Source of the DNA: Meiothermus sp.
GTDB taxonomy: Bacteria; Deinococcota; Deinococci; Deinococcales; Thermaceae
Assembly (NCBI RefSeq): GCF_026004075.1
Contig: NZ_BPIK01000001.1
Coordinates: 2,210,041-2,274,040 of the forward strand
Direction of reading: 5' to 3'
Length of the DNA: 64,000 bases
The notes below the pieces were generated by a model that was given only the letters and a program-made list of their open reading frames with translations, had not been told where the DNA came from and did no database searches. This document shows positions 9,841 to 16,773 of the stretch, piece after piece (position 1 is the first letter of the stretch; every line of letters begins with the position of its first letter). The translations under genes and the position numbers were made by a program.

Positions 9841-9886
9841 TGGTGGACCGCACAGGACTCGAACCTGTGACCAACCGATTAAAAGT
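9841..9886. repeat. attL, orphan 3' part of tRNA-Lys
   Basis: The 46 bases are identical to the tRNA-Lys 3' part at 16698-16743 except at 9860 (C here, T at 16717). It runs from the CCA end through the T arm and variable loop into the anticodon loop. No 5' half follows, so this is the chromosomal 3' end displaced by integration. Confidence 0.92.
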
Positions 9887-10153: not shown

Positions 10154-10711
10154 GTGGCCGAGTTGTTTACCCACCCTGAGCAAGAGGACTACCTGAAGCG
10201 CCGCTACCTGTGGGAACTGTGGACATCCCTGCTCGAGCTTGCCCCAACCTGCATGGCTTACCTGAGGGAACAAGGTGTGGATGCCTGGCTCGAGCACTGC
10301 GGGCTGCCCGAGGAGTTGCGCGATTGGGCTGAGGAATACCGCGCTGACCCCCACGGGTATGTGCCTTTAGGTTGGGACTGGCAGTATCAAACACCGTTCA
10401 CAGTGCGCCTGACCTGGCACTGGGAGCCTTTTCCCGAATACGACCCTACCCGGATGCCCCCGCATCTGTGGAAAGCGAAGGCTATTGCCTGGCTCGAGTC
10501 TTACATGCAAGCTGTAGAAGACGCTTACAAGCAAGCGGGATGGGTGGAAGCGCGGATCAAATACAACCCTGAGCACTTTGCGTGGCTGGCGTTGCGGCTC
10601 GAGGGGTTGAGCTACAAGCAAATAGCCGAGAAGTTGGAGCTCAAAGAGGATTACACCGCTGTGAGGATGGCGGTAAAGCGTTTGGCCAAGCATCTAGGGG
10701 TGAACATTTAG
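10154..10711 (+). CDS. element protein with C-terminal helix-turn-helix-like region
   Basis: I do not recognise a named family for this 185-residue protein. It is rich in Trp and acidic residues in its first two thirds. The end (LSYKQIAEKLELKEDYTAVRMAVKRL, about residues 147-172) has the pattern of a helix-turn-helix of the sigma-region-4 or LuxR type. I chose the GTG at 10154 because GGAGGG sits 5 bases before it; the frame is open for 15 more codons upstream without a ribosome binding site. As the first gene after the left end it may be a regulator, but no function should be assigned. Confidence 0.65.
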   Translation: MAELFTHPEQEDYLKRRYLWELWTSLLELAPTCMAYLREQGVDAWLEHCGLPEELRDWAEEYRADPHGYVPLGWDWQYQTPFTVRLTWHWEPFPEYDPTRMPPHLWKAKAIAWLESYMQAVEDAYKQAGWVEARIKYNPEHFAWLALRLEGLSYKQIAEKLELKEDYTAVRMAVKRLAKHLGVNI

Positions 10712-10756
10712 TCATCAAGCAGTTGTTCTATCCAAGAGAGCCATGACCGCTGCACC

Positions 10757-10785
10757 ATGCGGGATGTATGGAAAACATCCCGCAT
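10757..10785 (+). promoter_or_regulatory. perfect 11-bp inverted repeat enclosing a start codon
   Basis: ATGCGGGATGT (10757-10767) is exactly complementary to ACATCCCGCAT (10775-10785). The 7-base loop begins with the ATG at 10768 that starts the next gene. In mRNA this would hold the start codon in a hairpin loop and bury any ribosome binding site; in DNA it is a good dimeric operator. Both readings suggest autoregulation. Confidence 0.75.
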
Positions 10786-10980
10786 CTTTCGACTCTTTCT
10801 GAGGTTCACAGGCTCATTGGCTATGACCGGGTAGGGCGTGATGTCCTGTATGCCGTTGCGCGTCGGTATGGCGTGAAGTTGGGCAAAAGGTACTTGTTTC
10901 CCCGCCGCGTGGTACTGGCCCTGCTCGAGGGCCGTCTAGACGAGTTGGAAAACCCCGCCGGGGCTGGCGGGGCTGAGTAG
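10768..10980 (+). CDS. small DNA-binding-like protein of the element (excisionase-like)
   Basis: The 70-residue protein has a segment ILYAVARRYGVKLGKRYLFPRRVVLALL-like in pattern (residues 26-53) that matches the helix-turn-helix and wing layout of small excisionase or MerR-type proteins. The family call is tentative. No alternative start exists in frame, since a stop lies upstream at 10744. The ATG sits in the loop of an 11-bp inverted repeat, so expression is probably controlled. In comparable islands a small DNA-binding protein in this place controls excision or the operon. The gene is followed after 11 bases by the 152-residue gene. Confidence 0.6.
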   Translation: MENIPHLSTLSEVHRLIGYDRVGRDVLYAVARRYGVKLGKRYLFPRRVVLALLEGRLDELENPAGAGGAE

Positions 10981-10991
10981 GGGGGCTGACT

Positions 10992-11450
10992 GTGGGAATC
11001 CCTAACGACATTCTACGCGACCGGTTGACCTACCTGGCGTATTTTCCCCCCGAGCAACGGAGCACCGCCGCTAACAGCCTGCTCGAGGCGGTGCGCGCCG
11101 GGTGCTCCGAGCCTCACCAGGCGGTGAGCTACGCCCTCGAGAAGGCCGCCCGTCGCACCTGGAACGAGGCCGCCCACACCTTGAGGTTGCTGGCCGAACT
11201 GGACTTCGAGGCCCTGCTAGCCGGGGCACGCTGGGCTTTGTGGTGGGAGAGTCTGTCCCCCGAGGAGAAGCGCCGTTTTCGGGAGGGGCGGGCTGAGGAA
11301 GCCATAGAGCGCTGGATGGAGCAAAACCCACCCACAGACAGGCAACTCGCCTATTTGAACCGCCTGGGCTACCGTGGCCCGACACCCGCTAATCGGCTCG
11401 AGGCTTCCCGGCTGATTGACGAGCTCGTGGAAGGGGTGCGGCATGTCTAA
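10992..11450 (+). CDS. element protein with C-terminal LGYRGPTPANRLEAS motif
   Basis: This 152-residue protein starts with GTG at 10992, preceded by GGGGGGCTGA. The N-terminal two thirds are helical and charged, with no family I can name. The end (about residues 115-148) has DRQLAYLNRLGYRGPTP followed by NRLEASRLIDEL, a short module I associate with accessory and replication-related proteins of mobile elements; this association is from memory. The stop overlaps the start of the primase by 8 bases, so translation is probably coupled and a replication role is plausible. Confidence 0.6.
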   Translation: MGIPNDILRDRLTYLAYFPPEQRSTAANSLLEAVRAGCSEPHQAVSYALEKAARRTWNEAAHTLRLLAELDFEALLAGARWALWWESLSPEEKRRFREGRAEEAIERWMEQNPPTDRQLAYLNRLGYRGPTPANRLEASRLIDELVEGVRHV

Positions 11451-14220
11451 CCCTCTTCTGCAGGCCGCCCTCGAGTACGCCCGGCTGGGGTATGCGGTGC
11501 TGCCCCTGCTGCCCGGTGAGAAGCGCCCGCACAGCCGGTTGGTGCCCCACGGGCTGCGCGATGCCACCACCAACCCCGAGGTGTTGCGCCGCTGGTGGCA
11601 GGCTGTGCCCACCGCCGGGGTGGGCATCCTGCCCCCGGCTGAGGTGCTGGGGCTCGACTTCGACACGCTCGAGGTGTGGGAGCAGCTGCGGGCTGAATAC
11701 CCCGAGCTAGCCGAGGCCCCCCGGCAGCGAACCCCTCGGGGCGGGGTGCATGTCTTCCTGAAGCTGCCTAAAAGTCTGATAGGAAGCCTCACCAGCAGCA
11801 CCCGGAAGATGCCGGGGCTGGACTTGCGCGGCCTGGGCAAAGCGTACCTTGCGGCTGCCCCTACCGAGCTACCAAACGGGGGCTATAGCTGGGAAGTCCC
11901 CCTGCTGCCCCCGACTGAACTGCCCCTGCCCCCCGAGGGGCTGCTAAAGCGTCTGCTGCCCGAGCCCCCACCCCCACCACCTGAGTACCAGCCCGTGAAC
12001 TTCCGGGGCTTGAGGGACGACAAGCTGACCCGCCGCCTGGAAGGGCTCTTGCGCTGGGCCTGTGAGCGGGTAGCGGCTGCCCCTGAAGGGGTGCGGCATA
12101 ACACCCTGCTCTCCTATGCCCGAATGGCGGGGGGCTACGTGCACCTGGGGCTGGACCCTGAGCAGGCCACCCGCGCCCTGACTGCGGCTGGGGTGCAGGC
12201 CGGGCTACCCCACCCCGAGGCTGAGGCCACCGCACGGGACGGGCTGAGGTACGGGCTGGATGCGCCGTTGAAACTGCCCGCTGATGAGCGGGGTAGGGTG
12301 AGTGCTGGGCAAAACCCCCCACCCGCTGACCCCCGCGAGTCCCACCAGCAGGTGGTGGGACTACTCGAGGGGCTGACCCCCGAGACCTGGCCCGAGCAAA
12401 GAGCCGCTTTCTTCGAGGGCTTGCAAAGTCTCGACCCGGTGAGCGTAGACCTGCTGCTCAAGAAAGCCGCAAGCAGGCTAGGGGTGGGAGCGGGAACTTT
12501 GCAGAAGGCCTTCAAAGAGCACGCCAAGAGGGGTGAGGAGGCCGAGCCCACCGCCGCTAAGGAAATCCTCACCCGGCTGGCCCTTGAGCACAGCGAACTG
12601 TGGAGGGACGGGGAGGGAGACGCTTGGGCCACCTTGCGGGTGGAAGACCACGCGGAAAACTGGCCCGTGCGCTCGAGGGCCTTCAGACTCTGGCTCACCC
12701 GGCTGTACTACGAGGAGCGGGGTGGGGTTCCCAACGCGCAAGCGCTGCTGGATGCTTTAGTCGCTGTGGAGGCCAAAGCGCTGTTTTCCAAAGCTGAGCA
12801 CCCGGTGTACCTGCGGGTAGCCCACCAGGACGGGGCGGTGTGGGTCGACCTAGGACGACCGAACTGGCAGGCCGTGCGCGTCACCGCTGAGGGCTGGGCC
12901 GTTCTGCCCCCCGAGGTGCGCTTCCGGCGTAGCAAAGCCACCGGAGCCCTGCCCATCCCGATACAGGGAGGGGTGGGGGCGTTGAGGGATATTCTGAACC
13001 CCTGGGCCTTAGGTGAAGATTCCTACACCCTGGTAGTGGCCTGGACGCTGGGGACGCTGAGCGGTGGCCCTTACCCGGTGCTGGCCCTTTCGGGAGAGCA
13101 GGGAAGCGGAAAAAGCACCCTGGCCCGCACGCTACAGCGGCTTGTAGACCCTTCGGGAGATGTAAGCAGTATCCCCCGCGAGTCCCGCGACCTGTTTGTC
13201 GCGGCTAAGCACAGTCACGTACTGGCTTTTGACAACGTATCTGGCTTGCCGCCCTGGTTCAGTGATGACCTGTGCAAGCTGGCTACGGGTGGGATGCTGC
13301 GAACAAGGGAACTCTATACCAACGATGATGAGGCGTTTTTGAAGGCCAAACGCCCGGTAATCCTCAACGGGATTACCGATTACCTGACACAGCAAGACCT
13401 GGTAGATCGCTCTATCCTGTTGCACCTGCCCCCCCTCGAACAGCACCAGCCCGAGGCTGAACTGTGGGCTGATTTCCAGGAGGCCCACCCTCGAGCCTTA
13501 GGCGGGTTGCTTGACCTTACCGCCCTGGCCCTGCGTGAACTACCCCGCACCCGCACCCCTAACGTGCGCCTGGCGGATTTCGCCCGCTGGGCCTTGGCGG
13601 CTGAGTCGGGTTATGCCCCGCGCCCCGGAGCGTTTGAGCAGGCCTTTGCGGAGATGCGGGCGGAGTCGGTACGGGTTGGTTTGGACAATGAACCCCTATA
13701 CCCTCTGTTGCTGCGGCTGTTGGAGGAGGGGGCTTTTGAGGGAAGCGCCGGGGAACTGCTCGAGCGGTTGAACGCATTGCGGGGAGAGGACAAAAAAACC
13801 CCACCCGGCTGGCCTCGCACCCCCCACGCTATGGCTTCCTGGCTAAAGCGCACAGCCCCCGCCCTACGCAAGGTGGGGATTCAGGTTGCCCCCCTACCCC
13901 GCCAAGGGGACAAACGCCGCTGGGTCATAGAAAAAGTAGGGGGTACAAACGTCACAAATGTCATTGGTGTCATAAACCCCGTGCAGGACGCAAATCACAC
14001 CGTGACATTTCCCACCCACAATGACATTTCAAACGTCACCGCAAATGTCACCCCCCCGCCGGATGACATTTCAAATGTCATTTCCAACGGGCAAACGTCA
14101 CTTGAAGAATCGCGTGCAGGACGCACTGGTGACATTCATGACGTTTGTGACATTTCCAACCCTACTCTTTCTACGCAAGAGCAAGAGGAAGAGGGGGGTG
14201 ACTGGGAGGTGGTGCTATGA
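11443..14220 (+). CDS. bifunctional primase-polymerase / helicase of the element
   Basis: The 925-residue replication protein has an N-terminal primase-polymerase (archaeo-eukaryotic primase) domain. Its motifs are GLDFD (D72 and D74, metal binding), GGVHVF (H103) and GLDLRG (D127). A middle region of unclear fold follows, then an ATPase with Walker A SGEQGSGKST (K557) and a likely Walker B LAFDN (nucleotides 13219-13236). The C-terminal module at about 764-832 (GSAGELLERL, then WPRTPHAMASWLKR) recurs in the gene at 14521. Residues about 835-905 are encoded by the iteron cluster and read as low-complexity NVTNV/DISNV repeats. The ATG at 11443 has GGAAGGGG upstream; nine more codons upstream are open but lack such a site. 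It probably primes and unwinds the element's own origin. Confidence 0.88.
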   Translation: MSNPLLQAALEYARLGYAVLPLLPGEKRPHSRLVPHGLRDATTNPEVLRRWWQAVPTAGVGILPPAEVLGLDFDTLEVWEQLRAEYPELAEAPRQRTPRGGVHVFLKLPKSLIGSLTSSTRKMPGLDLRGLGKAYLAAAPTELPNGGYSWEVPLLPPTELPLPPEGLLKRLLPEPPPPPPEYQPVNFRGLRDDKLTRRLEGLLRWACERVAAAPEGVRHNTLLSYARMAGGYVHLGLDPEQATRALTAAGVQAGLPHPEAEATARDGLRYGLDAPLKLPADERGRVSAGQNPPPADPRESHQQVVGLLEGLTPETWPEQRAAFFEGLQSLDPVSVDLLLKKAASRLGVGAGTLQKAFKEHAKRGEEAEPTAAKEILTRLALEHSELWRDGEGDAWATLRVEDHAENWPVRSRAFRLWLTRLYYEERGGVPNAQALLDALVAVEAKALFSKAEHPVYLRVAHQDGAVWVDLGRPNWQAVRVTAEGWAVLPPEVRFRRSKATGALPIPIQGGVGALRDILNPWALGEDSYTLVVAWTLGTLSGGPYPVLALSGEQGSGKSTLARTLQRLVDPSGDVSSIPRESRDLFVAAKHSHVLAFDNVSGLPPWFSDDLCKLATGGMLRTRELYTNDDEAFLKAKRPVILNGITDYLTQQDLVDRSILLHLPPLEQHQPEAELWADFQEAHPRALGGLLDLTALALRELPRTRTPNVRLADFARWALAAESGYAPRPGAFEQAFAEMRAESVRVGLDNEPLYPLLLRLLEEGAFEGSAGELLERLNALRGEDKKTPPGWPRTPHAMASWLKRTAPALRKVGIQVAPLPRQGDKRRWVIEKVGGTNVTNVIGVINPVQDANHTVTFPTHNDISNVTANVTPPPDDISNVISNGQTSLEESRAGRTGDIHDVCDISNPTLSTQEQEEEGGDWEVVL
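13947..14155. repeat. iteron cluster AAAYGTCA/TGACRTTT, candidate replication origin
   Basis: Eleven exact copies of an 8-mer lie in 209 bases at the 3' end of the primase gene. AAAYGTCA occurs at 13947, 13956, 14031, 14043, 14073 and 14093; TGACRTTT occurs at 14003, 14022, 14064, 14139 and 14148. Two further copies (13966, 14130) differ by one or two bases. Two pairs form 17-base palindromes (14022-14038 and the perfect 14064-14080). Both orientations are used and the spacing is not a multiple of three, so the pattern serves DNA binding rather than a protein repeat. Confidence 0.8.
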
Positions 14221-15198: not shown

Positions 15199-15226
15199 TT
15201 GACCATTGAGAACACAGTGATAAAAT
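15199..15226 (+). promoter_or_regulatory. promoter of the integrase unit
   Basis: TTGACC (15199-15204), a 16-base spacer and TAAAAT (15221-15226) lie 8 bases before the ATG at 15235. Transcription would start at or just before the ATG, so the message would be leaderless or nearly so. Confidence 0.75.
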
Positions 15227-15234
15227 AGTGATGT

Positions 15235-15447
15235 ATGCCAAGAGGACAGAACTTACACCGGGTTAGACAGCCCAAGGAAGTACGGCTCAAGCAGCTAGGG
15301 CTCAACACGCCCTTGAAGCCGGGGGAGAGAAGTGTGCTGGTGCGCGTCCGCCTGCACGAGCCATGGGCGAAACGCCTGCTGGAGATGACCCCCCAGGAGC
15401 GCGGGGAGGTCTTCATGGCCGGGGTGGAGGCCCTGCAAGGGAGGTAG
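15235..15447 (+). CDS. small basic protein upstream of the integrase
   Basis: I do not recognise this 70-residue protein. It is basic in its first half (MPRGQNLHRVRQPKEVRLKQLGL) and ends in a helical segment WAKRLLEMTPQERGEVFMAGVEAL. It is the first gene of the integrase transcript, and its stop lies 2 bases before the integrase start. It has a leaderless-type promoter. Position and size fit a directionality factor or an auxiliary DNA-binding protein, but this is inference only. Confidence 0.6.
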   Translation: MPRGQNLHRVRQPKEVRLKQLGLNTPLKPGERSVLVRVRLHEPWAKRLLEMTPQERGEVFMAGVEALQGR

Positions 15448-15449
15448 CC

Positions 15450-16622
15450 ATGCCTAGAAAGCGCGGTAAGGGTTCAGGAACAACCTACTACCACAAAGGC
15501 TCTGGCCGCTGGTGCGCCGAACTGAACCTGGGCTTTGATGCTGAAGGTAAGCCCCTCCGGGTGCGCGGCTACCACAAGACCCGGAAAGAGGCTGAGGCAT
15601 GGCTAGCAGAACAGGCCACGCTCTATCACAAGGGGCTGCTTGCCAACCCCTCCAGCGTCACCCTGAAGGACTGGGCCATGCGCTGGCTCGAGCGCAAAGA
15701 GAAAGAGGTCAGGCCCAGGACGGTAGAGCTCTACAGGCAAGAGCTAGGCTATGCCCTCCCCAGCGTCAAGAATCCCCAGGCCCGCGACCCCCTGGGTAGC
15801 CTGCCCTTGCAGAAAGTCACCCCTTCCCACATCCGGTCAGTGCTGGATGACCTGGGCAAACGCTACAGCCTTCGCACCGTAAGGCAGGTCAGGCAAAGAC
15901 TCTGGCAGGTATGCCGGGATGCCCTGGACATGGAGCTCATTCACCGCAACCCGGCGGAGCCGGTGAAGATCAAGGCCCCCCGTGACCAGGCCAAGACCAA
16001 AGCTGGGAGGGCTCTCGAGCTCCATGAGGTGCAAGCTCTGCTCAGCGCCCTGGACGCTCACAGTGACCCCAGAACCGCCCTCTCGTTGCGCCTGATGCTG
16101 GCCTGTGGGTTGCGTTTGGGCGAGGCCCTGGGCTTGCAGTGGCAGGATGTAGACCTCGAGGCCGGGGTGCTCAGGGTGTCCAGGGCCTACAGCGCAAACC
16201 GCATCACCCTACCCAAGACCCACACAAGCGCTCGGACTGTACCAATCCCCAGGGCCACGCTGGAGCGGCTGAGGGCCTACCGGGACTGGTGGAGGGAGAG
16301 GCTGGGAGAGTACCCCCCGACTGGGATGTGGGTCTTCCCTGGGGATGACCCCAGCAAGCCCCTGGACTACCGGGCCCCTGCTCACCTGCTGACCAGGGTT
16401 ACGAAAAAACTAGGAATCCCCCACGTCAGAGTGCATGACCTCCGGCACAGCTACGGTTCCCACCTGCTGGCTAATGGCGCACCCCTCGAGCTGGTATCCG
16501 AGCGGATGGGCCACGCCAACCCGAACATCACCCTGGGGGTGTACCGGCATCTGCTCCAGCATGAGCGACAGGGCTTTGTGATTGACCCAGAAGACCTGCT
16601 CCAACCCAGGGCGCAAGCCTGA
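15450..16622 (+). CDS. tyrosine integrase of the tRNA-Lys element
   Basis: This 390-residue site-specific recombinase has an N-terminal arm-binding domain (about 10-60; GTTYYHKGSGRWCAEL), a core-binding SAM-like domain (about 70-180) and a catalytic domain. The catalytic residues are R222 (CGLRLGEAL), K256, H329 and R332 (HDLRHSYG), H355 (MGHANPNI) and the nucleophile Y365 (GVYRHL). The ATG at 15450 follows GGGAGGTAG; the open frame upstream overlaps the 70-residue gene in another phase. The gene points towards attR and the intact tRNA-Lys, the usual place for an integrase of a tRNA-targeting island. All catalytic residues are present, so it is probably active. Confidence 0.93.
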   Translation: MPRKRGKGSGTTYYHKGSGRWCAELNLGFDAEGKPLRVRGYHKTRKEAEAWLAEQATLYHKGLLANPSSVTLKDWAMRWLERKEKEVRPRTVELYRQELGYALPSVKNPQARDPLGSLPLQKVTPSHIRSVLDDLGKRYSLRTVRQVRQRLWQVCRDALDMELIHRNPAEPVKIKAPRDQAKTKAGRALELHEVQALLSALDAHSDPRTALSLRLMLACGLRLGEALGLQWQDVDLEAGVLRVSRAYSANRITLPKTHTSARTVPIPRATLERLRAYRDWWRERLGEYPPTGMWVFPGDDPSKPLDYRAPAHLLTRVTKKLGIPHVRVHDLRHSYGSHLLANGAPLELVSERMGHANPNITLGVYRHLLQHERQGFVIDPEDLLQPRAQA

Positions 16623-16697: not shown

Positions 16698-16743
16698 TGG
16701 TGGACCGCACAGGACTTGAACCTGTGACCAACCGATTAAAAGT
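16698..16743. repeat. attR within tRNA-Lys
   Basis: This is the element-borne copy of the 46-bp repeat. It supplies the 3' part of tRNA-Lys from the CCA end to the anticodon loop, so the tRNA stays complete after integration. It differs from attL by one base in the T loop. Confidence 0.92.
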
Positions 16744-16773
16744 CGGTTGCTCTACCAACTGAGCTAGCGGTCC
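16698..16773 (-). tRNA. tRNA-Lys (anticodon UUU)
   Basis: The 76-base cloverleaf has acceptor GGACCGC paired with GCGGTCC, anticodon stem ACCGA/TCGGT with loop CTTTTAA, T loop GTTCAAGTC and an encoded CCA. The 3' part comes from the integrated element. The orphan chromosomal copy at 9841 has GTTCGAGTC instead. Confidence 0.97.

Follow-up and report, generated by a model that had tools for sequence, protein, structure and literature searches.

A candidate start-codon hairpin at an excisionase-like gene of a tRNA-Lys-integrated element in Meiothermus

The window, that is, the whole 64-kb stretch of Meiothermus DNA analysed here, contains a 6.9 kb mobile element integrated at a tRNA-Lys gene (Table 1). 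The element is bounded by a 46-bp direct repeat of the tRNA-Lys 3′ end (45/46 identical), and its genes follow the order g1, g2, g3, g4, g5, g6, g7, integrase. It encodes a PrimPol-helicase, with a Prim-Pol match (PF09250) at E 8e-28, and a tyrosine integrase, and so combines the three features of ICETh2-type elements, a direct repeat of the tRNA 3′ end, a tyrosine integrase and a PrimPol. Similar elements occur at tRNA-Lys in related genomes, and apparently also at other tRNA genes. The window genome has pieces of related elements at three further loci, with g3 at 1534923 and 2501202 and g2 at 1654990. Positions 15199–15235 hold TTGACC-16-TAAAAT, followed 8 nt on by the g7 ATG, an arrangement that would give g7 and the integrase a near-leaderless, −10-adjacent start.

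Table 1. Coordinates of the element features in the window
Feature	Position	Strand	Description
att repeat, copy 1	9841..9886		46 bp, 45 identical to the tRNA-Lys 3′ end
g1	10154..10711	+	C-terminal sigma70-r4-like HTH; putative GTG start, GGAGGG SD
P1	10702..10728	+	Upstream palindrome GAACATTT...GTTGTTC; left arm overlaps the g1 end
30-nt block	10753..10782	+	CACCATGCGGGATGTATGGAAAACATCCCG; invariant in the window, L003, L004 and L026
P2	10757..10785	+	Inverted repeat with 11 perfect pairs; start codon in the 7-nt loop ATGGAAA
Short ORF	10757..10834	+	25 codons, from the 5′-arm ATG; overlaps g2 out of frame
g2	10768..10980	+	70-aa HTH_17/excisionase-like protein
P3	10953..10972	+	CCCCGCC-GGGGCT-GGCGGGG, at the g2 3′ end
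g3	10992..11450	+	Conserved 152-aa protein without assigned function
g4	11443..14220	+	PrimPol-helicase fusion
Integrase	15447..16622	+	Tyrosine integrase, putative start; preceded by g7 (15235–15447)
att repeat, copy 2	16698..16743		Inside tRNA-Lys (16698–16773)

The g2 protein was described beforehand as helix-turn-helix (HTH)-like, and this view is sustained by its family and its predicted fold. Among 18 members of the family, 9 match Pfam HTH_17, with E values down to 2.8e-5; for the window protein itself there is no Pfam match. The AlphaFold2 model (mean pLDDT 81.6, pTM 0.67) has the order helix, helix, two-strand wing, helix, as in HTH_17/excisionase-like proteins, and its best meaningful PDB matches are BldC and Xis, although these are weak (Foldseek E 0.16 and above). 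A search of 111 genomes of the phylum found g2 relatives in 25, of which 24 belong to the same family as the window; phage and plasmid records gave none.

The start of g2 lies within P2, of layout ATGCGGGATGT-ATGGAAA-ACATCCCGCAT. The arms (10757–10767 and 10775–10785) are fully complementary, as the preliminary description had stated, and the start codon (10768–10770) forms the first three bases of the loop (10768–10774). It is also right that no other in-frame start exists: after the TGA at 10744–10746, the sole ATG, GTG or TTG before the conserved protein is that at 10768. A non-canonical in-frame CTG at 10750 is not conserved in the close relative L003.

Taken alone, the repeat is weak evidence, since such repeats are not rare in the window: the whole 64 kb has five perfect repeats with arms of 11 bp or more and loops of 3–20, against 0.53 ± 0.76 expected under a first-order Markov null. 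The position and conservation of P2, unlike the bare repeat, are not weak evidence. Starts inside an enclosing perfect stem of at least 9 bp make up only 0.5% of the 203 window ORFs, a background that contains spurious ORFs. As RNA, positions 10750–10795 (46 nt) are predicted to fold at −18.0 kcal/mol (z = −4.45; 0 of 200 shuffles as low), and at 60 °C P2 would still reach about −10.7 kcal/mol. These local values predict a stable hairpin over the initiation codon; longer stretches around P2 give fold z-scores of just −1.1 to −1.9, and when 36-nt start segments are compared, 1.7% of 173 other gene starts, taken from a non-overlapping gene set, fold equally well. An Rfam search returned tRNAs only and no known RNA family at P2. 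An intrinsic terminator at P2 was considered and rejected, since a T tract is absent after the stem and no terminator was called.

Conservation was followed in four copies: that of the window, those of two further genomes belonging to its genus (L003, whose matching contig is that of M. luteus, L061, and L004) and that of the viral contig L026. The invariant block of Table 1, half of which (15 nt) is non-coding, stands out from the rest of the locus, where the next-longest invariant run is 11 nt. Just upstream of it 3 of 18 nt are invariant, and in the coding part after it 26 of 45. Codons 1–5 of g2 are identical between the window and L026, and later codons for the same residue are identical in 23 of 40 cases. 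The three other g2 proteins are 71–97% identical to that of the window; since L003 shares the whole gene at 97%, it counts with the window as nearly one observation, and L004 and L026 stand at 71–73% (protein). All 11 pairs of P2 are kept in L003, nine in L004, and eight plus one G·U in L026. The invariance of 30 nt amid drifted flanking DNA is the strongest sign of a function for the block, and selection on P2 in its close lineage is supported. It is very improbable that P2 is without function, a chance palindrome kept through recent descent or recombination. About 0.5 such repeats are expected per 64 kb and few sequences carry P2, two of them being nearly one, but the divergence of L004 and L026 and the strong drift of the DNA around the block speak against such an origin.

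The limits of the block are asymmetric. On the 5′ side it reaches 4 nt past the stem, and the 5′ arm and the preceding CACC, non-coding as they are, are invariant in all four copies; on the coding side it ends sharply where the stem ends. The block also persists in the viral contigs L026 and L027, where g1 is absent and g3 looks truncated. The 5′ overhang and this persistence are in keeping with another job for the block, as a processing site, an antisense RNA target or a protein-bound RNA, with the start codon there by an accident of evolution. We consider this explanation decidedly unlikely in view of the abrupt coding-side limit and of the recurrence of the start-enclosing position in sister lineages.

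In three sister copies (L005, L002 and L006), the same start codon is enclosed by hairpins of different sequence, with arms GGGGGTA/TACCCCC, TGGGGG/CCCCCA and CTGGGGGC-ATGAAC-GCTCCTGG, the last with three G·U pairs. When 5′ and 3′ arms were swapped among the window, L002 and L006, own pairs gave −15.1 kcal/mol versus −9.0 for swapped ones. A permutation of arms gave p 0.004 over 14 lineages, few of them independent, and p = 0.17 with three. The recurrence of such hairpins and the swap result both speak for an RNA structure. Against it, 27% of gene starts are at least as structured as those of L002 and L007. P2 itself is absent from most g2 homologues, among them L002, the second copy in the window genome. 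Retention of the gene without the repeat, which the preliminary description would take as counting against its proposal, is the case in most homologues, and the proposal is partly contradicted by it. More distant relatives have an ordinary Shine-Dalgarno (SD) sequence, as in L012, L021 and L022, or no hairpin, which also counts against the RNA structure. As most homologues lack P2 and several have an ordinary SD, P2 belongs to a lineage and not to the core function of g2; among the sequences compared, it is restricted to a single branch of this family of elements.

Two further palindromes lie upstream of g2 and at its 3′ end. P1 is intact in L003, L004 and L026, degenerate in the window, and more widespread than P2 among g2 homologues. 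P1-type palindromes of differing sequence are found in most copies, beginning some 40–85 nt before the g2 start (combined p about 4e-12, a value inflated by relatedness); they keep a similar place in L003, L004, L006, L007, L017, L022, L023, L025 and L026. A terminator-like T run follows P1 in L007, L017 and L022 and not elsewhere. As some P1 copies thus resemble terminators right before the start codon, where a promoter has no room, attenuation is suggested there. In the viral contigs L026 and L027 (1–440), which lack g1 and retain P1, P2 and g2, a hairpin-rich sequence resembling IS200/IS605 ends abuts P1. P3, at the other end of g2, is common to barely related HTH genes occupying the same slot. 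Upstream of g3 (L079–L092) this slot often holds other small HTH_17-like genes that share only their 3′ end, an NPAGxGG tail coded by the CCCCGCC/GGCGGGG hairpin. This pattern resembles an exchange of cassettes whose 3′ boundary is conserved.

The preliminary description saw in the DNA palindrome a strong operator. In that case the double-stranded repeat would be bound by a dimer of an HTH protein, either that of g1, that of g2 or a host factor, and transcription into g2 and on through the replication genes would be blocked; we hold this reading to be rather unlikely. The perfect two-fold symmetry, arm centres 18 bp apart, the invariance of the sequence including the flanking CACC, and the HTH proteins encoded on either side of P2 are all consistent with it, as are the P1 palindromes of relatives, in which the differences between L023 and L025 are mirrored in the two arms and the span is near-constant (26–28 bp) in several copies. 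Several observations do not fit. The full repeat occurs once in each genome examined, and arms with up to two mismatches are not in excess in the window (19 versus 15.7 expected), so that an operator of multiple sites was rejected. No sigma70-like −10 or TANNNT motif was found within 60 nt before the g2 start of window-type copies, and hence no promoter that the palindrome would overlap. L026 and L004 keep the outer bases of the 5′ arm and lose their 3′ partners, and sister lineages retain a hairpin but neither its sequence nor its spacing. Finally, the fold relatives BldC and Xis bind direct repeats, not a lone palindrome. Collectively, the operator of the preliminary description is not borne out. 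The lack of TANNNT also makes it unlikely that in window-type copies the palindrome is the promoter for a leaderless start at 10768.

The most likely reading, with about an even chance of being right, is that P2 is an RNA hairpin throttling initiation of g2 translation, a built-in brake on an excisionase-like protein. P2 would be a cis-acting hairpin within a polycistronic mRNA of the element, consistent with the window having no terminator-like sequence in the g1–g2 interval. It would keep the initiation codon in its 7-nt loop, with no usable SD outside the stem; window-type copies have no SD beyond GGA. Since the start codon lies in the loop and a usable SD is absent outside the stem, g2 translation would be very low by default, and would rise only once the stem opens. 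The stem may be opened by a ribosome, either arriving from upstream or engaged at the 5′-arm ATG, by a protein that binds it, or transiently during transcription. The sequence and position of P2, its conservation in one lineage, its predicted stability and the absence of an SD and of a nearby −10 underlie this proposal; an RNA spanning both arms, repression by it and the identity of the opener are what we infer. In genes without an SD the start region is usually unstructured, and folding it lowers expression (PMC3121790). The preliminary description had supposed that RNA structure would hide any ribosome site, and the start region would indeed be hidden. Its further idea of a tight switch for excision or replication finds a connection only in the gene neighbourhood.

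Pairing at P2 was also followed in an alignment of six copies, where 91% of cells pair, against 42–58% in slid controls. RNAalifold returns P1 and P2 from these copies, with several G·U variants. Several pair changes at P2 are to G·U and two pairs are compensated, covariation that was equalled in 352 of 500 shuffles. As P2 is nearly invariant within the window-type lineage, it can yield almost no covariation, and as covariation does not exceed that of shuffles, the choice between RNA and DNA rests on several weak arguments. We favour the RNA hairpin over the DNA operator, although the comparison itself does not decide between them.

One detail counts against the brake: L026 and L004 keep the 5′-arm ATG with the CACC before it despite lost 3′ partners, a conservation that pairing alone does not explain. 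In L004 (G016 C1, about 1127490), a one-base insertion directly after the invariant block places the protein in the frame of the 5′-arm ATG instead of that of the loop ATG. Either this copy is broken or the 5′-arm ATG can serve as a start codon. A very unlikely reading is that the two starts are nested out of frame: ribosomes initiating at the 5′-arm ATG would translate the short ORF, melt the hairpin and license the loop ATG. After a one-base insertion, as in L004, the 5′-arm ATG could also become the g2 start. If true, nested starts would account for a conservation of CACC-ATG that extends beyond the pairing partners.

The brake proposed for P2 is a known type of control. Hairpins over start codons act as translational operators in the MS2 replicase operator, in phage T4 RegA/gp43 and in ribosomal-protein operators. 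As in these, the P2 stem-loop covers the initiation region in a polycistronic message and would lower initiation; unlike in these, P2 has no known trans-acting repressor, its arms contain no strong SD and the start codon lies entirely in the loop. If true, P2 would give a mobile element a compact, naturally occurring translational brake on a DNA-binding gene, one that works at the temperature where a moderate thermophile grows, and the sister hairpins, ordinary SD starts and replaced HTH genes would form a comparative series for the dosage of an excisionase-like protein. The helix and wing order of the g2 model resembles that of the small winged HTH proteins of the HTH_17/BldC/Xis group (Tn916, Pukovnik); it differs in its weak Foldseek scores and its lack of a Pfam match. 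The element as a whole is like ICETh2 of Thermus thermophilus and its kin in the Thermales in being tRNA-integrated, with an integrase beside the tRNA and a PrimPol module, and is set apart from ICETh2 by its 6.9 kb at tRNA-Lys (PMC7693054). In the parts of that report consulted, g2 and its hairpin are not described, and Exc2 of ICETh2 is placed with the integrase, whereas g2 lies in the PrimPol module (PMC7693054). In Meiothermus versions of such elements noted in the same parts, PrimPol is fused to a helicase domain in proteins of 970–1000 aa, and g4 matches this fused form (PMC7693054).
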